Assembly: GCA_030684775.1 (NCBI GenBank)
Contig: JAUXXW010000083.1
Coordinates: 16,452-80,451 of the forward strand
DNA: 64,000 bases
DNA from: Pseudomonadota bacterium
Lineage (GTDB): Bacteria; Pseudomonadota; Gammaproteobacteria; Burkholderiales; Thiobacillaceae
Direction: 5' to 3'
In this document: positions 6,259 through 64,000 of the stretch, one piece after another
How the letters are laid out: each line of letters opens with the position of its first letter
Numbering within the stretch: the stretch's first letter is position 1
Translations under genes and position numbers: made by a program
Notes under the pieces: generated by a model
What the model was told of the DNA's origin: nothing
The model's input: the letters and a program-made list of their open reading frames with translations, nothing else
Databases searched by the model: none

Positions 6259-7125
6259 ATGACCCTGACTGAACGCCTCTCCCTCTACGAAAAGCTGATG
6301 CGCCTGGACAAGCCCATCGGCATTCTGCTGCTCGCTTGGCCGACGCTGTGGGGGCTGTGGTTGTCCGGCGCCGGCGAGCCGGACCCGCTGGTGTTCTGGA
6401 TATTCGCCCTGGGCGTGGTGCTGATGCGCTCCGCCGGTTGCGTGATCAACGACTATGCCGACCGCCATTTCGATGCGCATGTGGTGCGCACCAAAAACCG
6501 CCCCCTGGCCGCCGGCCTGGTGAGCGAGAAGGAAGCGTTGTGGCTGGCGGGTGGGCTGGCGCTGCTGGCGTTCCTGCTGCTCCTGCCGTTGCAGAACAAG
6601 TTGCTGATCGGGCTCTCCTTCGCCGCGCTGTTCCTGGCCGCGACCTATCCCTTCACCAAACGCTTTTTCGCCGTGCCGCAGGCCTATCTGGGCGTGGCCT
6701 TCGGCTTCGGCATCCCCATGGCCTATGCCGCGCAACTGGATTTCATCCCCGCCGAGGCCTGGCTGCTGATGCTGGCCAATGTGTTCTGGGCGATGGCCTA
6801 CGACACCGAGTACGCGATGGTGGACCGCGAAGATGACCTGAAAATCGGCATCAAGACATCGGCCATCACCTTCGGCAAGCACGATGTGACGGCGGTCATG
6901 GCCTGTTACGGCCTCACCCTGTTGACGCTGGCCTGGGTTGGCGCGCGTCTGCACCTGGGCTGGCCGTTCTACCTCGGGCTGGGCGCGGCCGCCGGCGTGG
7001 CCGTTTATCACTGGACCTTGATTCGCGACCGCGACCCCGCGCGCTGCTTCAAGGCCTTTCTGCACAACAACTGGTTCGGCGGCGCGGTGTTCGCCGGCAT
7101 CGCGGCCAGCCTGCTGCGCCTGTAA
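6259..7125 (+). CDS. ubiA: 4-hydroxybenzoate polyprenyltransferase UbiA
   Basis: 288 residues with multiple membrane helices and both aspartate-rich prenyltransferase motifs: NDYADRHFD near residue 73 and DREDDLKIG near residue 191. It attaches the polyprenyl tail to 4-hydroxybenzoate in the inner membrane, an early membrane step in ubiquinone synthesis. The opening [22 protein letters not shown] is typical of proteobacterial UbiA rather than of COX10 or menaquinone homologues. It stands alone here, with a half repeat upstream and a yecA-type gene 14 bases downstream. Confidence 0.96.
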
Positions 7126-7139
7126 TACAAGGAATTTCC

Positions 7140-7862
7140 ATGGATGCCGATCACGCCCTGAGCGACGAAGAGTTCGACGAGCTCGATGCTTTTCTGATGT
7201 CGGAATCGCTCTCCGACGAGGCGATGGACCTCTCCACCCTGGATGGCTTCTTCGCCGCCATCGCCCTCAACCCCGAATTTGTCCTGCCCAGCCAGTGGCT
7301 GCCCTGGGTGTGGGACATGGAGGCGGGCGAGGAAACCCCCACGTTCGACAACGTCGAGCAGGCCGAGCACATCAACGGGCTGCTGCTGCGCCACTACAAC
7401 AGCGTGCAGGAAGCGATCAGCGATGGCCGCTACGCGCCGCTGATGTACACACTGCACCAGGAAGACGGCAGTGAGTTCTATGACGCCGAAGGCTGGAGCA
7501 TGGGCTTCATGCTGGGGATGTTCCTGTTCCAGGACATCTGGTTGCCGATCCTCGATGACCACCCGGAATGGCTGGCGCCGATGCGCTTGCTGGGTACCGA
7601 GGAAGGCTGGAAAGAACTGGAAGAGTCGCACCCGGACCATGCCGACCAGCGCCCCGCGATCCGCGCCGCCTACGACCGCATTCCCGAGGCGATAGAAGCG
7701 ATTTTTCTGCATTTCCTGCCACAGCGTGAAGCCGCCGCACGAGAACGGGTCACCGCCACCCTGCGCCGCGCCGGCGACAAGGTCGGCCGCAACGACCTCT
7801 GCCCTTGCGGTTCCGGCAAAAAATTCAAGAAATGCTGTGGCGCCGGGCCGACGCTACATTGA
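7140..7862 (+). CDS. YecA/UPF0149 family protein with C-terminal SEC-C zinc motif
   Basis: 240 residues. The N-terminal part ([39 protein letters not shown]) is the UPF0149/YgfB-YecA fold; the C-terminus [19 protein letters not shown] is a SEC-C zinc-binding motif like that at the SecA tail. Proteins of this layout are thought to bind ribosomes or SecA partners, but their role is not settled. It follows ubiA closely and may share its transcript. Confidence 0.9.
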
Positions 7863-7904
7863 GCGGACAGGCGTGAATTCCTCCGGCATCAACCGGCTCG
7901 GGCA

Positions 7905-8456
7905 TCAACCGGTAATGGCCGGCTTGATCGCCGATTTCGGCCGGAATGCCTTGAGCACTTCTTCCCGCGTTTCCAGGTAAGGCCCGCCGATCAGGTCGAT
8001 GCCGTAGGGCACGGCGGCGAAGACGCCATCCAGGGTTTCCTTGATCGCCTTGGGCTGGCCCGGCAGGTTGAGAATCAGGCAACTACCGCGAACCACGCCG
8101 ACCTGGCGCGAGAGGATGGCGGTGGGGACGTACTTCAGACTCACCGCGCGCATCTGCTCGCCGAATCCCGGCAATACCTTGTCGGCCACCGCCAGCGTGG
8201 CTTCCGGGGTGACGTCGCGCGGCGCCGGGCCGGTGCCGCCGGTGGTGAGCACCAAACAGCACTGCGCGGCAAGCTCGATCAGGGTGGCTTCGATGGCCGC
8301 CTGTTCATCCGGGATCAGGCGTTCGACGAAAGTGATTGGATTGTGCAGCGCGCCGACCAGCCATTCCTTCAGGGCGGGCAAGCCCTTGTCTTCATAGACG
8401 CCGGAACTGGCGCGGTCGCTGATGGAAACGATGCCGATGCTGGCGGTTTGGGCCAT
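7905..8456 (-). CDS. mog: Molybdopterin adenylyltransferase Mog (MoaB/Mog family)
   Basis: 183 residues with the MPT-binding signatures SISDRASSGVYEDKG, LTTGGTGPAPRDVTPEA and NLPGQPKAI. The length fits Mog. It adenylates molybdopterin ahead of molybdate insertion, in the cytoplasm. MoaB-type paralogues are very similar, so the exact name has some uncertainty. It stands alone on the minus strand, convergent with the yecA-like gene. Confidence 0.88.
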   Translation of the reverse strand: MAQTASIGIVSISDRASSGVYEDKGLPALKEWLVGALHNPITFVERLIPDEQAAIEATLIELAAQCCLVLTTGGTGPAPRDVTPEATLAVADKVLPGFGEQMRAVSLKYVPTAILSRQVGVVRGSCLILNLPGQPKAIKETLDGVFAAVPYGIDLIGGPYLETREEVLKAFRPKSAIKPAITG

Positions 8457-8521
8457 GTGAATTTCCTGTGCGTAAAGCGGGGGCGGTTGTTTACCACGCG
8501 GCCCGGCCGGGAGCCAACCCG

Positions 8522-9067
8522 CTATCTCTTGTTTTCACTGGGCGCGCATGCCCGCGCCACCCGTGAGATGGCGGCCGGTGGGCCGATCTCGGCCCAGGTT
8601 TCCGGGTAATGCCCCTGCGCGATGCGCGCCGGCAGGCTCGACCAGGGGTATTCGGCCGCGCGCGTGATCAGCCCGTGCCGTACCGGGTCGTAGTGGATGA
8701 AATCCAGGTAGGCCCGCAGGTCATCGGTTGAATTTGCGCCGCGGTATTCGATGGCGTGTTCCCAGAACGGGGTGATGTTGGGCGCATCGCGTTCCAGCAG
8801 CGGAGTCGACTTGCGCCAGGCGCGCTGGAAGCCGGCGCGCAGGTCGTTCATGACGGCGGAGTATTCGTACTCGGCGGGCAGGTTGAAAAGAAAATGGGCA
8901 TGGTCATCCAGCACGACATAGCCGGCGACGGCCAGCTTGAAGCGCTTTTTGGTTTCCATGAAGCTGTTCAGCAGCAATTTCTTCATGGAAGCCTGGGCCA
9001 GGAGTGGTGCGCGGCCGAAAGTGCGCAGGGTCACGAATTGATAGGGGGAGAAACGGGAGGCGGACAC
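8522..9067 (-). CDS. REP-associated tyrosine transposase (RAYT, Y1_Tnp family)
   Basis: 181 residues from a GTG start. The Y1-transposase core is visible: the metal-binding HAH in VVLDDHAHFLFNLP near residue 55 and the candidate nucleophile tyrosine region RAYLDFIHYDPVRHGL. The FIHYNPVKHG-type motif and the WSS segment are hallmarks of RAYT proteins rather than of IS200 transposases. There are no IS ends around it, as expected for a domesticated RAYT. The genome region carries palindromic repeat pairs that could be its substrates, though this is inference. Confidence 0.85.
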   Translation of the reverse strand: MSASRFSPYQFVTLRTFGRAPLLAQASMKKLLLNSFMETKKRFKLAVAGYVVLDDHAHFLFNLPAEYEYSAVMNDLRAGFQRAWRKSTPLLERDAPNITPFWEHAIEYRGANSTDDLRAYLDFIHYDPVRHGLITRAAEYPWSSLPARIAQGHYPETWAEIGPPAAISRVARACAPSENKR

Positions 9068-50108: not shown

Positions 50109-50183
50109 GGGCAGTTAGCTCAGTGGTAGAGCATCGCCTTCACACGGCGGGGGTCGGTGGTTCGAAACCACTACTGCCCACCA
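50109..50183 (+). tRNA. tRNA-Val (CAC), used as integration site
   Basis: 75 bases folding as a standard cloverleaf: acceptor GGGCAGT/ACTGCCC, D stem GCTC/GAGC, anticodon stem TCGCC/GGCGG around loop TTCACAC (anticodon CAC), T stem GGTGG/CCACT with loop TTCGAAA, and encoded CCA. The 3' end is the left attachment site of the element that follows, and it remains intact. Confidence 0.97.
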
Positions 50184-52933: not shown

Positions 52934-53191
52934 TTGAGCCAAGCCACGAATCAACCCGCACAGGTCGCAGAACGGCCCGCCAGTCCGGAAATCCAGCCCG
53001 GTGAACGATTCATTCGGATGCCTGAAGTCATGTCCATGACCGGGCTGAAGACTTCGACCATCTATCGGTTGCAGGCGGAATCCCAATTTCCGCAAAGCAT
53101 CCCGCTCCCTGGCGGTCGCCGCGCCTGGCTGGAAAGTGAAATCAGGAAGTTCATGCAAGAGCGCGTTGCCCTGCGCGAAGCGGCCAATTAA
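52934..53191 (+). CDS. AlpA-family DNA-binding regulator
   Basis: 85 residues from a TTG start with ACAGGAG 7 bases upstream. The AlpA/MerR-like helix-turn-helix is plain: RFIRMPEVMSMTGLKTSTIYRLQAESQFPQSIPLPGGRRAWLESEIRKFM. AlpA-type proteins in P4-like elements act as excisionase or activate int. It is the first gene of the operon that contains the tail genes, 20 bases before the next gene. Confidence 0.9.
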   Translation: MSQATNQPAQVAERPASPEIQPGERFIRMPEVMSMTGLKTSTIYRLQAESQFPQSIPLPGGRRAWLESEIRKFMQERVALREAAN

Positions 53192-53211: not shown

Positions 53212-53952
53212 ATGAGCGACACACCGAACACATCCCCCGGCGCCGATTTGCCGGACACCCTCCCGCCGATTCTGGAAAAACTGACCAGCTATCGCCATGA
53301 ACTCGCGCAGAAAGAAGCCAAGTGCGCCGACCTGACCGAACAAATCGAGCACCAGGAAAAAGCCGCCCTGGCGGCGGAAGCCGAGAGCGACGCCGCGAAG
53401 AGGAAACTTCGCGAAGCCTTGCGCGCCAGCATCGGCCGCCCCACGAAGAAGATGTACGAGCTGAAAGCCGAGGAGAAATCCGCCCTGAGCCTGGCGGAGG
53501 AATACCGCGCCCTGGCTTATGACATCGGCATCGAGCGGGACCGGGTTGTCGTCGACAGGCACGTCGTCGCGAACAATTACCGTGACACGCTGAAAGCCGC
53601 TCGCACCATCCTCGCGGACCATCTTCTCGACCGGGCGCTTGCCGGCGTCCCGCGTGAACTGGTTGAAGCGCTGCGCCTGCAAGCGGGACTTCAGGAACAC
53701 GACCCACATTCCGAATGGCATCAGATCCCCGTGAGCGACTCCGCCACGGCCTTCGAATTCGTGTTCGCGCGCGCCTGCAAGCGCCTTCTCGCCCTGCTGA
53801 AAGATGCGCCGGACAACCGCCAGGCGATGCTTCCGGCCGAACTTGCCACCCCCCTCAATACCGCCGGTCTTGTGGCCAGCCCGCTGGAACTGAAGCGGAT
53901 GCGCGATGACCTGGCGGAGCGTGAGCGCGCCGGCTATCCGCTGGAAGCCTGA
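53212..53952 (+). CDS. Coiled-coil hypothetical protein (possible Psu-like position)
   Basis: 246 residues, almost wholly helical. A long coiled coil (ILEKLTSYRHELAQKEAKCADLTEQIEHQEKAALAAEAESDAAKRKL) is followed by SIGRPTKKMYELKAEEKSALSLAEEY and helical segments. Layout (helix, short Gly break, helix, helical C-terminal half) and genomic place recall the P4 polarity-suppression/capsid decoration protein Psu, but I see no diagnostic motif and do not claim homology. It could equally be a scaffold or size-determination factor. Spaced 5 bases before the first Ogr-like gene. Confidence 0.6.
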   Translation: MSDTPNTSPGADLPDTLPPILEKLTSYRHELAQKEAKCADLTEQIEHQEKAALAAEAESDAAKRKLREALRASIGRPTKKMYELKAEEKSALSLAEEYRALAYDIGIERDRVVVDRHVVANNYRDTLKAARTILADHLLDRALAGVPRELVEALRLQAGLQEHDPHSEWHQIPVSDSATAFEFVFARACKRLLALLKDAPDNRQAMLPAELATPLNTAGLVASPLELKRMRDDLAERERAGYPLEA

Positions 53953-53957
53953 CCGCC

Positions 53958-54191
53958 ATGACCCCATCCCAGGCTTGCGTTTACTGCTCTTCCCCGGCCG
54001 AAGAAATCGGCAGGGTGAACTTCACCCGTGACTACACGGAAGTCACCTACCGCTGCACCAATCCGCGCTGTCAGGGCATCACCACCGCAATGGTGACCCT
54101 GAAGCGTGCCGGCCTGCCGGCGTCCGGTCGGTATCTCCACCCCGAAACCCTCCCCGGCCGCCAGGTCGAATTTTTCAAGGAACAACTGTGA
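53958..54191 (+). CDS. Ogr/Delta-like zinc-finger protein 1 (divergent)
   Basis: 77 residues with four cysteines as CVYC ... CTNPRC (C-x2-C, C-x4-C), the Ogr/Delta zinc arrangement. The conserved RTSR stretch that follows the first pair in P2 Ogr is absent (SSPAEEIGRVNF instead). It shares a scaffold with Ogr-like 2 (SPAEEIG, TEVTYRCTN, TLKRAGLP), so these two form a subfamily. Whether it still activates late promoters is open. Overlaps the gpE start by 4 bases. Confidence 0.82.
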   Translation: MTPSQACVYCSSPAEEIGRVNFTRDYTEVTYRCTNPRCQGITTAMVTLKRAGLPASGRYLHPETLPGRQVEFFKEQL

Positions 54192-54469
54192 ACATCGCAT
54201 TGAAAACCCCCATCAAGCGCGGCGAGACGGCGATCGATGCCGTCGAGTTGCGCAAGCCCACCGCCGGCGAGCTGCGCGGCGTGTCCCTGGTCGAGTTGCT
54301 CCAGATGGACGTCGGCGCGATTTCCAAAGTCCTGCCGCGCATCACCATGCCGGCGTTGATCCCGGAAGAAATCGCCGGCATGGACCCCGCCGACCTACTG
54401 GCCATGGGCGCCACCATCTCCGGCTTCTTGCTGCCCACGGCGGCGCCGGCATCCCCTGACGTGAAATGA
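54188..54469 (+). CDS. P2 gpE-like phage tail assembly chaperone
   Basis: 93 residues from a GTG start overlapping the previous stop. It matches the P2 gpE family along its length: LKTPIKRGETAIDAVELRKPTAGELRGVSLVELLQMDVGAISKVLPRIT and EEIAGMDPADLLAMGATISGFLLP. In P2, E and its -1 frameshift product E+E' help assemble the tail around the tape measure. Here no slippery heptamer lies near the end of the frame, and the E' position is taken by an Ogr-like gene. Confidence 0.88.
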   Translation: MNIALKTPIKRGETAIDAVELRKPTAGELRGVSLVELLQMDVGAISKVLPRITMPALIPEEIAGMDPADLLAMGATISGFLLPTAAPASPDVK

Positions 54470-54479
54470 AGGAAAAAAC

Positions 54480-54710
54480 ATGAACACCAAACAGAAATGC
54501 CCGAATTGCGGTTCCCCGGCCGATGAAGTCGGCAGCGCGGCCAAATCCGTGGACCTGACCGAGTTTTCCTTTCGCTGCACCAACAACGCATGCCGGAGCA
54601 ATTTCACCGGCGTGCTCACCCTCACCCGCGGCGGCTTGCCTGGTGCGGAGAACTTCAACGGCCGCCCGCGCCCGGCGGATAAGGCTGGCGAAGCCGTCAC
54701 TGACTGCTGA
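54480..54710 (+). CDS. Ogr/Delta-like zinc-finger protein 2 (divergent)
   Basis: 76 residues with CPNC ... CTNNAC, the same C-x2-C / C-x4-C spacing as Ogr. Like copy 1 it lacks RTSR and shares SPADEVG, LTEFSFRCTN and TLTRGGLP with it. It sits exactly between gpE and the tape-measure gene, where P2 encodes E'. RBS GGA before AAAAAACATG. A DNA-binding role is likely; a tail-assembly role because of position cannot be excluded. Confidence 0.82.
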   Translation: MNTKQKCPNCGSPADEVGSAAKSVDLTEFSFRCTNNACRSNFTGVLTLTRGGLPGAENFNGRPRPADKAGEAVTDC

Positions 54711-54751: not shown

Positions 54752-57232
54752 ATGGACAAGTTGCAACTCGAAGTTTTGCTCAAGGCCATCGACCAGGTAA
54801 CTGCACCGCTCAAGAGCATCACCGGCGCCAGCGGCGAAGCCGCCAAGGCGGTGCGCGAGGCCAAGGGCGCCTTGAAAGAACTGGAAAATCAACAGGGCCT
54901 CATCGACAAGTTCCGTGATACCTCCAAGTGGGTGGGCACCACGGGCAATCAGCTCAAGGTCGCACAAGAGAAGGTCCGCGAACTGAAGTTGGAAATGGAT
55001 GCCACCGACGAACCCACCAGGAAGATGGCGCGGGCCTTCGAGGCAGCGAAGAAAGAGGCCGGCGAGCTGAAGGACAAGCACGGCGAGTTGATCGCCAAAC
55101 AACAGACCTTGCGCGCAGCCCTGGGGGAGTCCGGCATTTCTACTACCGACATGGCGTCGCACCAGAAGCGCCTGAAAACCGACATTGCCGCCGCCACCGG
55201 CGAAGTTGAGCGGCAATCCACCTCCCTTGGCCAGCACAACGAGAAAATGCGCGCGCTCAACGCCGCGCAAGCCGAGTACCGCAAGAGCATCGACTTCCGC
55301 AATAAGCTAGCCACGGGGGGCGCCGTCACGATGGCTACCGGCGCGGCGATGGGTATGCCCTTCCTGGCCGCCTCCCGCGAGTACGGCGACTTCGAACAAT
55401 CGATGATGGGGGTAGCCAAACAGATGGAAGGCGCGCGGGACGCCAATGGCAATGTAACCCAGAGCTATCACGAGATGGCCCGCGCCATCAAAGCCATGAG
55501 CGAAGAAATCCCGATGGCGGCGAATGAAATTGCTGCCATCGTGGAAGCTGGGGCGCGCATGGGCATCCAAGGCAAAGAGAACCTGCTCACCTACGCCCGC
55601 CAGACGGCCATCATGTCCAGCGCCCTCGATCTTTCGGTGGAACAGACCGGGATGAACATGGCCACCATCGCCGGCCTCTACGAGGTGCCCATCGCCAACA
55701 TCAAGGAACTCGGGGACACCATCAACTGGCTTGACGACAACGCGAAGAGTAGTAGCGGCGACATCATCGACGTGATGAAGAGAGTGGCCGGCACGATGAG
55801 CGGCGTCATGGACTACCGGCAGACGGCGGCGCTGGCCTCTACCTTTCTGAGCTTGGGATCCCGTGCCGAAGTTGCAGCGAGCGCCACCAATGCGATGGTG
55901 CGGGAACTCTCTGTCGCCAACATGCAGGCGGACCGATTCCAGGATGGTATGAAATTGCTCAAGCTCGACTCGATGGAGATCCAGTCGGGCATGGCCACCG
56001 ATGCAACCGGGACCATCATCAAAGTTCTCGAAGCGATCAAGGCGCTCCCCAAGGAAAGGCAGATCGAAGGCGCTACGCGGATTTTCGGCAAGGAATTCGG
56101 CGACGATGCCGCGAAGTTGGCCAACAACTTAGACGAGTACCGCAAGCAACTGGGCTGGGTCAAAGATGCCCAGGCCAAAGGCAGCATGGACCGCGAGATG
56201 GGCTCGCAGTTGAAAGGACAGAAGGCCCAACAGAAGCTTCTTTCGAATGCCCTGGACAACCTCGCTTCCGATATCGGCGGCTCACTGAAAGGGCCGCTTG
56301 TGGCCCTGATCGGCGACATCCGGGGCGTGATTCAGGCCATCCGTGACTGGACGGCAGCCCACCCCACCCTGGTTTCCGTGCTGTCCACCGTGGGCGCCGG
56401 CATCGCCGCCGTCACCACGGCGGCGGGCGCCCTGGCGATCGGGGTGGCGGGTTTGCTAGGCCCCTTCGCCGCCGCCAAGCTGGCCATGACCAAGTTGGGT
56501 GTGGCTTCGCCCGCATTGGTCGGGAAGTTGGGGGCCATCCTCGGGCCGATTGGAAAGATCACCGCCGCCTTCACCGCCGGTTACGCGGCCGGCACGCTTC
56601 TCAACGACGGTATCACCGCATTGCTGACCAAGCTCACCGGCAAGAACACCAACCTGGGCTTCTGGATTTACGACCTGGTGCAGGCGGTCAAAGCCAAATA
56701 TGCCGAGTTGACCGCCTGGTTGAAGAAGCTGCCGGCGGAGATGGCTGGGATCGGTCATGCCCTGATCGACGGCATCATCGGCGGCATCAAGGCCCGCATG
56801 GCCGCCCTGAAATCCACCGTCACCGGGGTGGGACATGAAACCGTGGCCTGGTTGAAAAACACCCTGGGCATCAAGTCGCCGTCGCGGGTCTTCGAGGAAC
56901 TCGGGATCTACACCATGAAGGGGCTGGAACAGGGCATCAGCGGCGGCCAGGGCGCGCCGCTGGCGGCGATCGCCCGCATCGCAAAGCAGATGGGCGCCGC
57001 CGGCGCCGGGATGATGCTTTCCACCGGCGCCGCCCTGGCCAACATCGACCACCGCCCGCCGCTCGCCGGCGGCGCGATGGGGGGCGGCTACACCATCGTC
57101 AACCAGATCACCATCAACGCCGCGCCGGGCATGAACGAAAGAACCCTGGCGGAAGAAGTGGCGCGGCAAATCGACATGATCGAGCGGGCCAAGGCCGCGC
57201 GCGGGCGAAGCCTGCTTGGGGATCGGGCCTGA
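54752..57232 (+). CDS. P2-type tail tape measure protein (gpT-like)
   Basis: 826 residues. The N-terminal start MDKLQLEVLLKAIDQVTAPLKSITGASGEAAKAVREAKGAL and long coiled coils are P2-type tape measure. A PhageMin-tail-like core covers about 210-420 (EYGDFEQSMMGVAKQMEGARDANGN, YARQTAIMSSALDLSVEQTG). Hydrophobic helices lie near 540-570 and 600-630, and the C-terminus has IKSPSRVFEELGIYTMKGLEQGI. The frame is intact. Tape measures set tail length and enter the cell during infection; finding one in an element without other tail genes is the oddity here. Confidence 0.93.
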   Translation: MDKLQLEVLLKAIDQVTAPLKSITGASGEAAKAVREAKGALKELENQQGLIDKFRDTSKWVGTTGNQLKVAQEKVRELKLEMDATDEPTRKMARAFEAAKKEAGELKDKHGELIAKQQTLRAALGESGISTTDMASHQKRLKTDIAAATGEVERQSTSLGQHNEKMRALNAAQAEYRKSIDFRNKLATGGAVTMATGAAMGMPFLAASREYGDFEQSMMGVAKQMEGARDANGNVTQSYHEMARAIKAMSEEIPMAANEIAAIVEAGARMGIQGKENLLTYARQTAIMSSALDLSVEQTGMNMATIAGLYEVPIANIKELGDTINWLDDNAKSSSGDIIDVMKRVAGTMSGVMDYRQTAALASTFLSLGSRAEVAASATNAMVRELSVANMQADRFQDGMKLLKLDSMEIQSGMATDATGTIIKVLEAIKALPKERQIEGATRIFGKEFGDDAAKLANNLDEYRKQLGWVKDAQAKGSMDREMGSQLKGQKAQQKLLSNALDNLASDIGGSLKGPLVALIGDIRGVIQAIRDWTAAHPTLVSVLSTVGAGIAAVTTAAGALAIGVAGLLGPFAAAKLAMTKLGVASPALVGKLGAILGPIGKITAAFTAGYAAGTLLNDGITALLTKLTGKNTNLGFWIYDLVQAVKAKYAELTAWLKKLPAEMAGIGHALIDGIIGGIKARMAALKSTVTGVGHETVAWLKNTLGIKSPSRVFEELGIYTMKGLEQGISGGQGAPLAAIARIAKQMGAAGAGMMLSTGAALANIDHRPPLAGGAMGGGYTIVNQITINAAPGMNERTLAEEVARQIDMIERAKAARGRSLLGDRA

Positions 57233-57234
57233 AC

Positions 57235-57564
57235 ATGGAACCGCCGGCCAACACCGCCGACCCCGCCTATCAGGCCATCCGGGCCAACATCGAATCGGGA
57301 GAACCTGGAATGTTCATCGCCTGCCCGCACTGCCACAGCCGGGCCAACATCCGCACTTCCCGCGCCATGTCGCTGTTGACTCGGGACGCTTACTGCCAAT
57401 GCACCAACCTGGCATGCGGCCACACCTTCAGGGCGGTGCTGGAGATCGTGGAAACGATTTCACCCAGCGCGGTACCGGACCCCGACGTGTCCGCCAAGCT
57501 GCTGCACACGGGGCAATCCAGCCCGGCGCGGCAATCCTCCGGAGGGGCCGCCGTGGTTGCATAG
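57235..57564 (+). CDS. Ogr/Delta-family late transcription activator (canonical copy)
   Basis: 109 residues. From the internal Met (57310, with GGGAGA upstream) it matches P2 Ogr closely: FIACPHCHSRANIRTSRAMSLLTRDAYCQCTNLACGHTFRAVLEIVETISPSAVP, with both cysteine pairs and the RTSR motif. P2 Ogr and P4 Delta bind upstream of late promoters and contact the RNA polymerase alpha subunit. The 25-residue extension from 57235 has coding-like composition, so both starts are possible. It closes the operon 2 bases after the tape measure. Confidence 0.92.
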   Translation: MEPPANTADPAYQAIRANIESGEPGMFIACPHCHSRANIRTSRAMSLLTRDAYCQCTNLACGHTFRAVLEIVETISPSAVPDPDVSAKLLHTGQSSPARQSSGGAAVVA

Positions 57565-57580
57565 CCCAGGCGCCTCAAAC

Positions 57581-57605
57581 AAAAAAAATGGCCCCCGAAG
57601 GGGCC
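57581..57605 (-). terminator. Minus-strand-oriented terminator hairpin
   Basis: GGCCCC-CGAA-GGGGCC with an A run on its left, so a T run follows it only for leftward transcription. It would shield the late operon from antisense transcripts arising in the leader region, or end a leftward RNA. Confidence 0.65.
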
Positions 57606-57650
57606 AAACAGAGTGAAACAGTGATGAAAGCGATTATCTCCAACCCCGCG

Positions 57651-57683
57651 CGCCTTGACAGCATCGTCAAGGCGGCCAAGAAT
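57651..57683 (+). promoter_or_regulatory. Sigma-70 promoter with overlapping perfect dyad, start of replication-operon leader
   Basis: TTGACA at 57655-57660, 17 bases, AAGAAT at 57678-57683. A perfect 9-base inverted repeat (CGCCTTGAC-N6-GTCAAGGCG, 57651-57674) covers the -35, a typical operator arrangement. It lies about 240 bases before the first SD-supported start of the replication operon. Confidence 0.6.
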
Positions 57684-57740
57684 GTCTCCGCCGCGCCCAC
57701 AAACGCGGCCAGGATTGGCGTCCTGAAGAAAAGGCGGACT

Positions 57741-57765
57741 AGCCGCCAGCATCGCGGCTTTTTTT
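57741..57765 (+). terminator. Intrinsic terminator within the leader
   Basis: AGCCGC-N7-GCGGCT running into TTTTTTT, some 50-75 bases after the predicted transcription start. It would end most transcripts before the replication genes unless antitermination or translation intervenes. Confidence 0.75.
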
Positions 57766-57794
57766 ACGTCCGTCACCACGGCACCTCCCCTTAT

Positions 57795-57871
57795 GGGTGG
57801 GCCGTGCGGGGCATCGCAAGATGCGCCGGTCCCTTTTCCCGGTACGCCAACCCGCACGGTTCCGCCCACCC
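57795..57871 (+). ncRNA. Structured RNA candidate in the replication-operon leader (P4 CI-like position)
   Basis: Nested pairing: GGGTGGG (57795) with CCCACCC (57865), CCGTGCGG (57802) with CCGCACGG (57852), an inner hairpin GCATC-GCAA-GATGC with a GNRA-type loop (57811-57824), and CCGG/CCGG (57826, 57839). In P4 the equivalent place encodes the CI immunity RNA, which causes premature termination of the replication operon. The peptide in frame here looks like the Icd/Ash-like ORFs annotated in such islands, which may simply be translations of a conserved RNA. Function is inference. Confidence 0.4.
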
Positions 57872-57923
57872 TGATTGGCGTCAGGGCGAGCGGTTTGCTT
57901 CATCCGCTGAAAAGGAGGCCACC

Positions 57924-58166
57924 ATGGCCGCATTCGTTCGTCGCGCTCGCCGCGCGCAATCCCCGCGTTTCCCCACCCCGAGTCCGTCCCTTCCAGCCGC
58001 CGCGCGCGTCGACGCCTGGCGCCTGCAAGCCCTGCTCGAACACAAGCTATACCCAGCCGCTTGCGTCACCAGCTCGCTTATGGGCGGCTGGTTCGGCGTC
58101 AGCGACTTCAACAGGCTGGCCGGCACGTCCGGCCGTGGATCCATCAACCCGAAGGGGGGCGTATGA
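57924..58166 (+). CDS. Small basic protein, first gene of the replication operon
   Basis: 80 residues from an ATG with a near-perfect SD (AAAAGGAGG) 5 bases upstream, which decides the start against the much longer open frame. The N-terminus is Arg-rich (MAAFVRRARRAQSPRF); the rest (WRLQALLEHKLYPAACVTSSLMGGWFGVSDFNRLAG) is helical and could bind nucleic acid. Its stop overlaps the next start (ATGA). No family recognised; the longer frame resembles Icd/Ash-like ORFs of P4-type islands. Confidence 0.6.
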   Translation: MAAFVRRARRAQSPRFPTPSPSLPAAARVDAWRLQALLEHKLYPAACVTSSLMGGWFGVSDFNRLAGTSGRGSINPKGGV

Positions 58167-58546
58167 AAAACTTCAAACAATCGCCGTTGGACCAACGGCT
58201 TGAGCATGTCAGCAGCCAGGACAGGCGCAGTGTCGCAAGGAAGGTCTACGCGACGATCAATCCACTTTCCGCGCTGGTCGACCAACTGGGGAACCAACCG
58301 GAAATCCAGGCGCAATTCCGGGAGCTGTTGACCGTCCTGTCCACCAACGCGTCAGCGCTGCTCAGAGTGGGCGAAGCCGTGGATAGCGAGTTGACGGATG
58401 TTGAACTCGGCTTCGAAGCCTTCATCGCCATGCTTGACCAGATGGAGGAACAGCACATTCACACCGGCCGCACCTATTGCTTGTTGGCGCCGTTGTATCG
58501 GCAGCTCAACCGGGCAACAAACGCGGTCAACGAAGCGTTCAACTGA
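58163..58546 (+). CDS. Hypothetical protein of the satellite replication operon
   Basis: 127 residues, helical and slightly acidic (MKNFKQSPLDQRLEHVSSQDRRSVARKVYATINPLSALVDQLG...). No motif recognised. Coupled to the preceding gene and 10 bases before the next. It may be a regulator or replication accessory factor, judged only by position. Confidence 0.7.
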   Translation: MKNFKQSPLDQRLEHVSSQDRRSVARKVYATINPLSALVDQLGNQPEIQAQFRELLTVLSTNASALLRVGEAVDSELTDVELGFEAFIAMLDQMEEQHIHTGRTYCLLAPLYRQLNRATNAVNEAFN

Positions 58547-58556
58547 GGAGGCGACC

Positions 58557-59135
58557 ATGAGCAACTTCGAACCTCCCGACAGTGAACAACGCCGGCAAGC
58601 CGCAGACCTGGCCAAGCTGAGAGGCGAGGCCTACCAACGCGGGCAGAACATCATGCGGGCATTACTCGCATCCATCCTGCTGTATCGGGACAAGGCGCCG
58701 TCCGGTGCCGGCCGAATCGACGCCGGCATCGAGGTGGCCAATGGATTCACCTCCGCCTTGATGAACGTCGCCGATGACATGCTTTCGCTTCTCCCACCGC
58801 ACAAACAGAAGTGGCTGCCCGAATACATCGCCGATGACCTGGTGGAGCATGCCGAAGCGGCCCTGTCCAAGTTGGGGGATGGATGGGTTTCCCCCTGGCT
58901 GGTGCATGCCGACAAGCTGCGCGCCGAGGGGGCGAATGGCCTGAAGCTCCAGTTCCTCACGATCGGCCTGTACCAGGAATACGAGACCTTTGATTGCGGC
59001 CGCTGCCTGACCGGGCTGGACGAAGATTTCCGCACCGCCGCCATCGCCATGCTGGACAGTTTTTCCAGGCATGGGCGAGACGATCCCCACTTCGCGCGGG
59101 CGGCGGAAGCGCTCCTGGGACACCGCGCGCCATGA
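58557..59135 (+). CDS. Hypothetical protein of the satellite replication operon
   Basis: 192 residues with a good SD (GAGGAGG). Mostly helical, with one CxxC (DCGRCLTG) near residue 148. No domain recognised. Its stop overlaps the primase start (ATGA), so translation is coupled to the primase; a role in replication or copy control is possible. Confidence 0.72.
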   Translation: MSNFEPPDSEQRRQAADLAKLRGEAYQRGQNIMRALLASILLYRDKAPSGAGRIDAGIEVANGFTSALMNVADDMLSLLPPHKQKWLPEYIADDLVEHAEAALSKLGDGWVSPWLVHADKLRAEGANGLKLQFLTIGLYQEYETFDCGRCLTGLDEDFRTAAIAMLDSFSRHGRDDPHFARAAEALLGHRAP

Positions 59136-60157
59136 CCCGCCTATCGGTTTCCGAATTGCGCCAGGCCGCCCACGGCCGTTGGCCCGACATCCTGACCACC
59201 CTGGGCATGCCCGCCGACAGTCTGACCAAGGCCAACAAGCCTTGCCCGGCCTGCGGCGGCAGCGACCGCTTCAGCTTCACCGACAAGGGCGGCAGCGGCT
59301 CCTTTGTTTGTCGCGCTATGGATCGCCAGGGCGGCGACGGCTTCGAGCTGGCCATGCACTGGCTGGGCTGCGATTTCCGGGCCACCCTGGAAGCCGTGTC
59401 CCGCGCCCTGGGTACGGCGCCCACCCAGCCACCGCCGCAACGGCCACCGGCGCCGCAATCAGCCGCCGCGCGGCGGCGGGATACCGGCGCCGCGCTGCGC
59501 GAATTGTGGCGGCAGGCGCGCCCGGTCGAAGCCGCCGATCCCGTGGGCCGCTACCTGGCCCGCCGGGGCTTGCGCCTGCCGGCGTTTCCGCTGGTTTTGC
59601 GCTGCCATCCGGCGCTTCCCTACTGGCACACGCGGCACAGCCACCCGATCAGGCTTGGGCAGTATCCCGCCATGTTGGCCGCTGTACAGGGGAAGGATGG
59701 GCGCGTGGTGGCCCTGCACCGTACCTACCTGACGGCGGACGGCGCCAAGGCCTCGCCACTCGACCCGGACACCGGGCAGCCTCTCCCGGTGAAGAAGCTG
59801 ACGACCCGGGGTGAACAGGTCATGCCGGGCGCGGCGGTGCGTCTCTACCCGCCGGCGGGGGGCCGCCTGGCCCTGGCCGAAGGCATCGAAACCGGGCTGG
59901 CGGTGCACCTGGCCGGCGCGGTCCCTGTCTGGTCATGCGTGACGGCCTACGGCATGAGCGCCGTTGTCCTGCCGCCCGAAGTGGAAATGGTCACCATCGC
60001 CGCCGACAACGACGCCAACGGCGCCGGCCAACGCGCCGCCCTGGCGCTGGAAACGCGATTGAAGCGAGAAGGGCGGCGGGTCGAGACTCTGGCGCCCACC
60101 TCACCCGGCCTTGACTGGCTGGATGTGCTCAATCTCTGCGAGGAGTGCACGACATGA
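59132..60157 (+). CDS. P4-alpha-type primase: zinc ribbon plus TOPRIM
   Basis: 341 residues. The N-terminal zinc ribbon is PCPACGGSDRFSFTDKGGSGSFVCR; the C-terminal TOPRIM-like domain has LALAEGIETGLAVHLAG (acidic EGIET) and MVTIAADNDANGAGQRAAL (DxD-like ADND). This is the primase half of the P4 alpha protein. The helicase half is the next gene, so the two activities are split. Start overlaps the preceding stop, and the next gene overlaps its own stop. Confidence 0.92.
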   Translation: MTRLSVSELRQAAHGRWPDILTTLGMPADSLTKANKPCPACGGSDRFSFTDKGGSGSFVCRAMDRQGGDGFELAMHWLGCDFRATLEAVSRALGTAPTQPPPQRPPAPQSAAARRRDTGAALRELWRQARPVEAADPVGRYLARRGLRLPAFPLVLRCHPALPYWHTRHSHPIRLGQYPAMLAAVQGKDGRVVALHRTYLTADGAKASPLDPDTGQPLPVKKLTTRGEQVMPGAAVRLYPPAGGRLALAEGIETGLAVHLAGAVPVWSCVTAYGMSAVVLPPEVEMVTIAADNDANGAGQRAALALETRLKREGRRVETLAPTSPGLDWLDVLNLCEECTT

Positions 60158-61575
60158 ACGCGCGCGCCGACGCTGAGCGCCTGAAGCTGGTGACGGCCAA
60201 CCCGGAAGAGCAAGCGGCGATAGTGGCTCGTGGTGCGACGAAAGCGACGGCGGATAAGCCAACCCATGTTCCCCTTATGGAAGATAAAGCCGGCAGCCTT
60301 GACCCGCTGAGCCCGCCGACAATGGCGCCCGAAGGCTTTCCGCCGCTGCTGAAAACCATCGTGGACACCGCGACCGCCAGTTCTGAGGCACACCCGGTGG
60401 CGGTGGCCGCCAATGTTCTCGCTATGTTTTCCGCGATGGTTGGGCGTGGACCCGTTCAGTATCTTGGCGATGCCGCGCTGCACCCGAGGATTTTTCAGCT
60501 GATCGTTGGCAAGAGTGGCAAGGCGAGGAAAGGGACCGCCGAATACACCCCTCGGCGCATATTCTTCGCCGCCGAAACAATCCTACAAGACCGCCTAAAG
60601 ACCACCGACAGGCTGAAGACTTGGGTGGGTGGCTTGAGCACCGGCGAGGGGCTGGCTTATGCCATTCGCGATGCCGACAAGGAAGACGCGGGGGTCAAAG
60701 ACAAACGCCTGCTCGTGATCGAAACCGAGTTCGACAACGTGCTGCAACACTGCAAGCGTGAAGGCAACACCCTAAGCGCGACCATACGAAACCTCTGGGA
60801 CGGCCGCGACCTGGAACCCATGTCCAAGTCCGGGCAGAAGTCTGGAGAGCGCGCTACGCGGCCACACGTGGTTGTGATCGGGCATGTCACCGGCTTCGAG
60901 CTGCGAGAGAAGTCAACGGAAAACGACGCGGCGAATGGGCTGCTCAATCGCTTCATCACCCTGTACGTGCACAGGCCGAAGCTAGTACCTCTTCCCGAAC
61001 CAACGCCGGAGCCTACCATCCGCGTCATGGCGGAACTTGTAGCCGATGCCATCGAAGCCGCCACCGATGGCAAATATCACGCCAACAATGAGTGTGAAGT
61101 TCGATTAGGCGATGACGCTCGTGAATTGTGGTGCGAGCAATACCCGCAACTCAGCCGCGACCGCGAGGGAAAGGGCGGTAGCTTGATGGCTCGCGCAGAG
61201 GTTTACGCGCGCATCCTGGCGATGATCTTCTGCCTACTCGACAGCCGCCGTGAAATTGAGCCCTGCGACCTACGCGCAGCCTTGGCCTGGGTGGACTACT
61301 GGCGCCAGTCAGTGGACTACATCTTTCGTATGGCCGATGGGGATGGCGAGATGGACAGCTTCACCCTGCAAGTGTTCGAGGCCATACGCGCCCGGCCTGG
61401 CATCACTGCCACGGAACTGTCCGGCGTGCTCAAGCGCAATCGTACCGCCAACGAAATCAAACGCGCCTTGGAGAACCTGTTGAGCATGGCGCCGCCCCTT
61501 GTGGAAGCCAGAAAGCGCCCGACCTCCGGGCGTCCCGCCATCGAATATCACCTCTACAACCAGCACAGCAGATAA
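60154..61575 (+). CDS. DUF3987 ATPase (replicative helicase-like)
   Basis: 473 residues. A Walker A-like loop reads IVGKSGKARKGTAEY near residue 118, a Walker B-like strand LLVIETEFDNVLQ near 187 and a sensor-like HVVVIGHVTGFEL near 242. The C-terminal 80 residues look like a winged helix (ATELSGVLKRNRTANEIKRALENLL). DUF3987 proteins accompany TOPRIM primases in many satellites and plasmids and are thought to unwind DNA. AGGAG lies 8 bases before the chosen ATG. Confidence 0.88.
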   Translation: MNARADAERLKLVTANPEEQAAIVARGATKATADKPTHVPLMEDKAGSLDPLSPPTMAPEGFPPLLKTIVDTATASSEAHPVAVAANVLAMFSAMVGRGPVQYLGDAALHPRIFQLIVGKSGKARKGTAEYTPRRIFFAAETILQDRLKTTDRLKTWVGGLSTGEGLAYAIRDADKEDAGVKDKRLLVIETEFDNVLQHCKREGNTLSATIRNLWDGRDLEPMSKSGQKSGERATRPHVVVIGHVTGFELREKSTENDAANGLLNRFITLYVHRPKLVPLPEPTPEPTIRVMAELVADAIEAATDGKYHANNECEVRLGDDARELWCEQYPQLSRDREGKGGSLMARAEVYARILAMIFCLLDSRREIEPCDLRAALAWVDYWRQSVDYIFRMADGDGEMDSFTLQVFEAIRARPGITATELSGVLKRNRTANEIKRALENLLSMAPPLVEARKRPTSGRPAIEYHLYNQHSR

Positions 61576-61780
61576 ACGAAAGAAACGAATTAAACGAAGA
61601 AAGGCCCACAGTAAGGCGAGCGGCTGTGAAAGAAGTACGAAGAAAGTACGAAAGAAGTACGAGACGACGACGGCATCACCCTCACCGCCCTACCCTTAAT
61701 TCGTATTATTCGTAGTTAAGAAGTTACTGCAAGTCATTGGTTTAACGCTTAATTCGTTTAATTCGTTTAATTCGTACATG
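61573..61780. other. Iteron-like AT-rich array, putative replication origin
   Basis: Directly after the helicase gene. Left part: ACGAATTAAACGAA (61586-61599), then GAAGTACGAA-type repeats three times (61632-61663). Right part: TTAATTCGTATTATTCGTAGTTAA (61696-61719) and TTAATTCGTTTAATTCGTTTAATTCGT (61749-61775). The right repeats contain the exact reverse complement of the left 14-mer. Clustered direct and inverted short repeats in an AT-rich island next to primase/helicase genes fit a P4-type ori or crr. Confidence 0.6.
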
Positions 61781-61950
61781 AGTATTTAATCGTCCCTGCG
61801 AAACCCCATCACCTCCGAGTCTGGACAGCCAGCGCTGGCACTGGTGGTGCCGTGGGCTGGTTACAAGGGAAGATAATGGCTGTACGTGGAAGGCGCTGGC
61901 TGACTTCCCCGCCTACGGTCCTGCCAGACAACAACCTTTTCGGACTGACC

Positions 61951-62679: not shown

Positions 62680-62703
62680 TGAGGCCAACGACTGGAGAAA
62701 TGC

Positions 62704-62988
62704 ATGGCGCTCATGATTTCGCCGCAGGTACGCATCAAGCTTGCCAACAAGCAACCACCCGTTTCCAAAGATGAGATATTGCAGTGCTTCGCCAACCGGA
62801 CCGGGAAGTTGCTTTCGGACACGCGGGCGGAACACCTGACCAACCCAATCACGCGATGGTTTATTGCTGAAACAGACTTTGGCCGAAAACTGAAAGTGGT
62901 GTTCATCCCTCAGTCGGGAGACATCATCATCAAGTCAGCCTTCGACCCCAATGCCGAAGAACTGCGCATTTACGCCAGGTTCGGCTAA
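62704..62988 (+). CDS. Putative toxin of a toxin-first TA pair
   Basis: 94 residues: MALMISPQVRIKLANKQPPVSKDEILQCFANRTGKLL...ITRWFIAETDFGRKLKVVFIPQSGDIIIKSAFDPNAEELRIYARFG. The RWFIAETDFGRKLKVVF and IKSAFDPN-EE-RIY segments recall BrnT/RelE-like small ribonuclease folds. Relatives are often labelled ADP-ribosyl-(dinitrogen reductase) hydrolase, which I consider a misannotation at this size. An RHH-type antitoxin follows. A near-identical copy begins at 63788. Confidence 0.72.
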   Translation: MALMISPQVRIKLANKQPPVSKDEILQCFANRTGKLLSDTRAEHLTNPITRWFIAETDFGRKLKVVFIPQSGDIIIKSAFDPNAEELRIYARFG

Positions 62989-63004
62989 CGAAAAGGAGAT
63001 CACC

Positions 63005-63337
63005 ATGTCCGACAAAATCATGGACACCGACGAAGCCTGGGACAGCCGCCAACTTGGCGCTGACGAGGCTTTTGCCGCCGTTGCCGAAATGGACGATTCC
63101 GCCCTCAATGAGGCCCTTGAGTTGCAACCCATCTCGATCCGCCTACACAAGTCGCTGGTCGAGGATTTCAAGCTGATCGCGGGGATGAACGGATTGGGCT
63201 ACCAGACCCTGATGCGCCAGGTATTGAAGCGCTTTGCGGATTGCGAGAAAAAACAGATGTTGCGCGACATGGCGGCGGAATATGCCAAGGAGCAAGGTCA
63301 GGAAGATTCCGATGAGGAACTGCGCAAGGCCGCTTGA
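63005..63337 (+). CDS. CopG/BrnA-like ribbon-helix-helix antitoxin
   Basis: 110 residues. The C-terminal half carries an RHH-like segment (LQPISIRLHKSLVEDFKLIAGMNGLGYQTLMRQVLKRFA); the acidic N-terminus would contact the toxin. Strong RBS (AAAAGGAG). It should bind the TTGTATATACAA palindrome upstream of the toxin and repress the pair. Confidence 0.78.
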   Translation: MSDKIMDTDEAWDSRQLGADEAFAAVAEMDDSALNEALELQPISIRLHKSLVEDFKLIAGMNGLGYQTLMRQVLKRFADCEKKQMLRDMAAEYAKEQGQEDSDEELRKAA

Positions 63338-63762: not shown

Positions 63763-63787
63763 TGCGGCCAAAGACAGGAGACAAGGC

Positions 63788-64000
63788 ATGGCTCTCGTGA
63801 TTTCGCCGCAAGTTCGCATCAAGCTGGCCAACAAGACGCCGCCGGTTACGAAGGACGAAATCCTCCAGTGCTTCGCCAACCGGACTGGCAGCTACGCATT
63901 GGATATGCGAGCGGATCACCTGACCAACCCCATCACCCGATGGTTCATTGCTGAAACCGACTTCGGTCGGAAGCTGAAGGTGGTGTTCATGCCCCAGGGG
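63788..64000 (+). CDS. Second copy of the putative toxin, cut by the window end
   Basis: The 71 visible residues (MALVISPQVRIKLANKTPPVTKDEILQCFANRTGSYALDMRADHLTNPITRWFIAETDFGRKLKVVFMPQG) are nearly the same as the 62704 gene, with the same operator upstream. It lies outside the right attachment site, so it belongs either to the chromosome or to a second, tandem element. Confidence 0.75.
   Translation, partial: MALVISPQVRIKLANKTPPVTKDEILQCFANRTGSYALDMRADHLTNPITRWFIAETDFGRKLKVVFMPQG

Follow-up and report, generated by a model that had tools for sequence, protein, structure and literature searches.

The window, by which we mean the whole stretch of 64,000 nt that was analysed, carries an element that starts at a tRNA-Val gene (50109-50183) with an integrase gene next to it. 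The genes for AlpA (52934-53191) and a Psu/Sid-like protein (53212-53952; phrog_6165) are followed by those for a zinc finger of the Ogr/Delta type (53958-54191), a tail assembly chaperone (54188-54469; PF10109), an Ogr-like protein (54480-54710), a tape measure protein of 826 aa (54752-57232) and an Ogr protein (57235-57564), after which come the C4 switch and the replication genes. The zinc finger at 53958-54191 is not itself matched by Pfam but is related to the 54480-54710 gene. In all, this single element contains three Ogr/Delta-type zinc-finger genes, which alternate with its tail genes. Downstream of the switch, all on the plus strand, lie ORF1 (57924-58166; 80 aa), ORF2 (58163-58546; 127 aa) and ORF3 (58557-59135; 192 aa), the latter two unassigned in function, a primase with Zn ribbon and Toprim (59132-60157; phrog_510), the equivalent of the N-terminal part of P4 alpha, and a helicase-like replication protein (60145-61575; phrog_5311). 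ORF1 is the first gene of the operon and has the position of P4 kil and P1 icd; its start codon ATG at 57924 is preceded by the ribosome site AAAAGGAGG (57910-57918). Searches with 57624-58163, which includes ORF1, gave no hit in Pfam or PHROG and nothing meaningful in NCBIfam. An earlier reading of the window from its letters alone (the sequence-only reading) had placed a replication operon just after the leader, which agrees with this ribosome site, start codon and gene content. Just past the helicase-like gene, A+T-rich direct repeats TTAATTCGTTTAATTCGT (61690-61790) mark a possible replication origin. Further on, 62699-62913 and 63783-63997 form an 80% identical repeat with a small gene (phrog_18652); the second of the two sits at the end of the contig, and the small gene adjoins a CopG/BrnA-like antitoxin gene (62951-63337).

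Upstream of the operon we located a sigma-70-type promoter on the plus strand (57655-57683), with TTGACA at 57655-57660 and AAGAAT at 57678-57683, that is, 10 of 12 consensus bases and a spacer of 17. It is a motif match and by position the equivalent of the P4 promoter PLE. The predicted transcription start is at ∼57690, where an isrK-like leader (57690-57765, plus strand) begins; the leader comprises a hairpin (57690-57709), the a1 hairpin, b1 and an intrinsic terminator at 57741-57765, an exact match to AGCCGCCAGCATCGCGGCT with a T-run. Both promoter and terminator had been proposed before, and the U-run ends at 57765 as the sequence-only reading predicted; these patterns exceed those in shuffled sequences only modestly. 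In the relatives, promoter-like pairs are found at a near-fixed distance to a1, mostly 28-34 nt. Compared with the isrK model RF01394, 57690-57764 aligned over the full length with 44.5 bits, below the gathering threshold of 50, and 57677-57729 scored 25.9 bits against c4-a1b1 (RF03163), below the gathering threshold of 46.7. The leader is therefore divergent. A short isrK-like RNA of ∼75 nt is predicted to arise from it. The perfect dyad described earlier over the -35 box is present as a 9-base inverted repeat (57651-57674) with exact arms CGCCTTGAC (57651-57659) and GTCAAGGCG (57666-57674). For a 9-base dyad, shuffles give an expectation of 0.05 per 359 bases; the real window contains 46 such matches, or 0.26 per 360. 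The -35 dyad has a single copy in the window and was not found at the promoters of other C4 loci, so it lies outside the conserved design. It was rejected as a conserved operator, as the other loci lack it in this position; it is possible that it is an element-specific operator. A strong 7-pair hairpin at 57588-57606 would terminate minus-strand transcripts, which are antisense to the C4 leader.

The central feature of the locus is a C4 antisense RNA (57789-57873, plus strand). With Infernal and Rfam, this segment matched RF01695 with 65.7 bits (E 3.5e-11) over model positions 1-87, the full length, against a gathering threshold of 45 bits. It folds into a long outer stem and two inner hairpins, which show compensatory changes among relatives, and leaves a' and b' as single strands. 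The minimum free energy is -47.3 kcal/mol compared with -32.2 ± 3.3 in shuffled sequences (z -4.5). GGGTGGG (57795-57801) faces CCCACCC (57865-57871), CCGTGCGG (57802-57809) faces CCGCACGG (57852-57859), and the hairpin GCATC-GCAA-GATGC occupies 57811-57824, all as exact matches. The nested structured RNA claimed in the sequence-only reading is thus located stem by stem, with fold, Rfam score and covariation far beyond chance, and all of that reading's sequence elements occur at the place given or within a base or two. By family membership the C4 RNA is not new in itself, since it belongs to a known Rfam family; C4 was already on record for both Proteobacteria and phages in 2010 (PMC2864571).

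The two single strands of C4 are complementary to sites on both sides of it. The strand b' (CCTTTTC; 57832-57838) forms the loop of the second hairpin and a' (ACGCCAA; 57844-57850) is a junction strand. Target a1 (TTGGCGT; 57715-57721), the complement of a', and target b1 (GAAAAGG; 57728-57734), the complement of b', lie in the leader; a2 (TTGGCGT; 57875-57881) lies immediately 3' of C4 and b2 (GAAAAGG; 57909-57915) overlaps the Shine-Dalgarno sequence of ORF1, all on the plus strand like C4. The predicted C4-target duplexes have energies of -10.3 to -12.1 kcal/mol.

Covariance analysis, which the sequence-only reading had suggested as a check, was strongly positive both within the RNA and between the RNA and its targets. 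C4 was detected in 19 of 199 related genomes (16 above the cut-off), and the genome of the window carries another copy, on a different contig. We oriented and compared 27 good C4 loci, including that of the window; L020, L021 and L028, with weak or partial C4 matches, were left out. Over these 27 loci, 88.7% of the cells in the C4 helices are paired, and 16 of the 26 C4 pairs show changes on both sides (77 cells), a level reached in 0 of 500 shuffles; neither shuffles nor slid structures approach the real value. The sequences of a', b' and the targets vary widely, yet RNA and target alter jointly: complementarity to the own partner exceeded that to swapped partners with z values of 12.1 (b2), 11.5 (b1), 9.6 (a2) and 9.0 (a1), which are descriptive and not strict probabilities since some of the loci are closely related. 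Across the alignment, all four C4-target pairings covary. In 27 of 27 loci a start codon lies 40-52 nt 3' of C4, and the encoded proteins differ. The comparison shows cleanly that C4 co-evolves with its targets in all four pairings even as one controlled gene is swapped for another, which makes C4 a portable switch. One related genome, G189 (loci L011, L023, L027 and L029-L031), has 12 C4 matches, and several of these have no U-run at the leader terminator.

We compared the locus with known systems. The P4 CI region, run as a positive control, scored 74.9 bits for C4, 60.8 for isrK and 44.1 for c4-a1b1. It has the three Rfam models in identical order, four target sites (seqA and seqC belong to this system), with b2 lying across the ribosome site in front of the first gene, and an alpha-type primase in the operon; the genes between switch and primase in the window, however, have no recognised P4 counterpart, and the primase and helicase-like parts are separate genes here. 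The earlier proposal of a P4 CI-like control region is borne out by this shared anatomy and the same a1/b1/a2/b2 logic. In the c4 system of P1, an antirepressor is controlled in place of the replication genes found here. P1 and P7 c4 (icd-ant control) share the RNA family and the a'/b' to a1/b1/a2/b2 logic (PMC5320573). A terminated isrK-like leader also stands upstream of C4 in the IsrK/C4 unit of Gifsy-1 and Burkholderia cenocepacia (PMC4825925, PMC4603805), whereas here the isrK score is under the cut-off and the downstream genes are others. In B. cenocepacia, dRNA-seq detected an isrK of 81 nt and a C4 of 90 nt, which form one transcription unit (PMC4603805).

What we observed in the window is the RNA family, its covarying fold, a complementarity to four targets that likewise covaries, a b2 that overlaps the ribosome site, and the arrangement of the operon. 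On these grounds we consider the region very probably a P4/P1-type immunity switch with a C4 antisense RNA (called CI in P4). In all likelihood this switch belongs to an integrated P4-like element and keeps its replication genes off through the a/b pairings. Transcription would begin near 57690, and some transcripts would end at the terminator at 57765 to give the short isrK-like RNA. Read-through transcripts would carry C4, which would be excised and build up, and would then pair with transcripts made later from that promoter, at a1/b1 in the leader and a2/b2 just past C4. Pairing at b2 would hide the ribosome site and leave ORF1 untranslated; transcription would then stop early, no primase or helicase-like protein would be made and the element would stay quiet. 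P4 CI RNA causes termination through pairing with seqA and seqC (PMC4825925), and by analogy premature termination, with relief by a further-upstream promoter, may be expected at the window locus. We likewise infer C4 processing (by RNase P in P1/P7) and repression in trans.

The switch could belong to a decayed relic, the C4 family being correct and the element no longer functional. The contig ends at 64000, and a second tRNA-Val 3' end, which would mark the right end of the element, was not found in the window or the genome. No P2-type capsid gene was found in the genome (96% complete), and therefore no P2-type helper prophage either. These findings are compatible with decay, but the pairings, promoter, terminator and ribosome site are all intact and the replication genes downstream are still open, and we judge a relic very unlikely. 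Still less probable is an attenuator or leader that acts in cis alone and responds to some other signal. By its layout the RNA shares a transcript with its targets and could pair with them in cis; against this, the paired target sites flank it on both sides, processing and action in trans are known for P1/P7 C4, with Acinetobacter homologues apparently processed from longer transcripts (PMC5320573), and processing and trans action apply to P4 as well (PMC4825925).

The ORF1 frame extends upstream in the window to an ATG at 57624 (57624-58166, plus strand; 180 aa), which lies upstream of the promoter, and it is possible that this is an eta-like nested frame. In dinucleotide shuffles, openness of the ORF1 frame far upstream of the promoter had a chance of 0.27. 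Among 28 loci, 8 (the window, P4 and six others) had a frame without a stop from a point before the promoter through the whole of ORF1, against 2.9 expected, an excess that is suggestive only. The frame was open in 3 of 5 loci with an alpha-like primase, and we do not claim a nested eta-like frame as a rule for primase-bearing loci. Over 27 loci the downstream start is spread 11/13/3 over the three frames relative to C4, and the frame of the downstream gene is open through C4 in 16 and closed in 11. With a downstream gene that changes between elements and has no set reading frame with respect to C4, it is the RNA that is conserved. A region that is mainly protein-coding through an Ash/Icd-like or eta-like frame (57624-58166), with the folded RNA incidental, would fit the excess of open frames but is extremely unlikely in view of the abundant compensatory base changes, the missing family matches, the unfixed and often closed frame and the open frame in only 3 of 5 primase-bearing loci.

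The sequence-only reading had suspected that Ash/Icd-like ORFs annotated at such places are translations of a conserved RNA. In the window Pfam Ash (PF10554) had no match to 57624-58163 at E 0.1, and nothing was found across the window's genome at E 1. Ash/Icd membership was rejected; weak matches in other genomes are under the cut-off and away from C4 loci. In P4 (L032), the 'cI gene product' (8168-8584) carries the annotation of a transcriptional repressor; its residues 22-85, the stretch containing CI RNA, match Pfam Ash. The suspicion therefore stands insofar as P4 'cI' reads across CI RNA, but mere mis-annotation does not fit P4, where Forti et al. in 1999 are said to have described a gene eta translated through the CI region from an upstream promoter, with kil as its last part. 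Scanning the nested P4 frames gave an inner frame of 65 aa and outer starts giving 198-199 aa, the sizes of kil and eta. Proteins annotated across C4 (Ash, P4 'cI') should be read with the caution that they overlap a conserved RNA.

We conclude that the element under the C4 switch is more unusual than the RNA and is the part that deserves follow-up. Like P4-like satellites it has an integrase at a tRNA, AlpA, Psu/Sid-like and Ogr/Delta-like zinc-finger genes and an alpha-type primase; unlike them, it has a tail assembly chaperone and the 826-aa tape measure between the Sid-like gene and C4. No capsid genes were seen as far as the contig reaches: when 16 P2 structural proteins were compared with the window only E and T matched. 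The contig ends at 64000, before a right end of the element was detected, and capsid genes may lie beyond it. In Vibrio cholerae, PLE satellites also encode a tape measure and a chaperone of their own (tmp/tac), but are an unrelated satellite type in which the function has been shown, whereas here we infer it (PMC12987554). To the knowledge of the PLE authors, tape measure genes occurred in no other satellites (PMC12987554); a 2023 paper described putative tape measure genes in another satellite group (PMC10448857). We give an even chance to the reading that C4 here governs an undescribed branch of P4-like satellites that builds chimeric tails on helper particles with its own chaperone and tape measure, joined in one relative by a gpD-like tail protein, as in PLE. 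If the element is a working satellite, tail hijacking would extend from PLE to the classical P4 type.

No tape measure gene was found alongside Sid at other Sid-like loci, and a scan of the collection with Sid for further tape-measure relatives yielded only the metagenomic contig L057. This contig has a near-identical order of tRNA-Val end, integrase, Ogr-like, AlpA, Sid-like, zinc finger, chaperone, Ogr and tape measure, and ends before any C4. Between the window and L057, the tape measure has a dN/dS of 0.19 and the chaperone one of 0.21, values that suggest selection has maintained the two genes. Right after its tape measure gene, L057 encodes a gpD-like tail protein (6545-7969; phrog_52; 40% identity to P2 D) where the window has Ogr.
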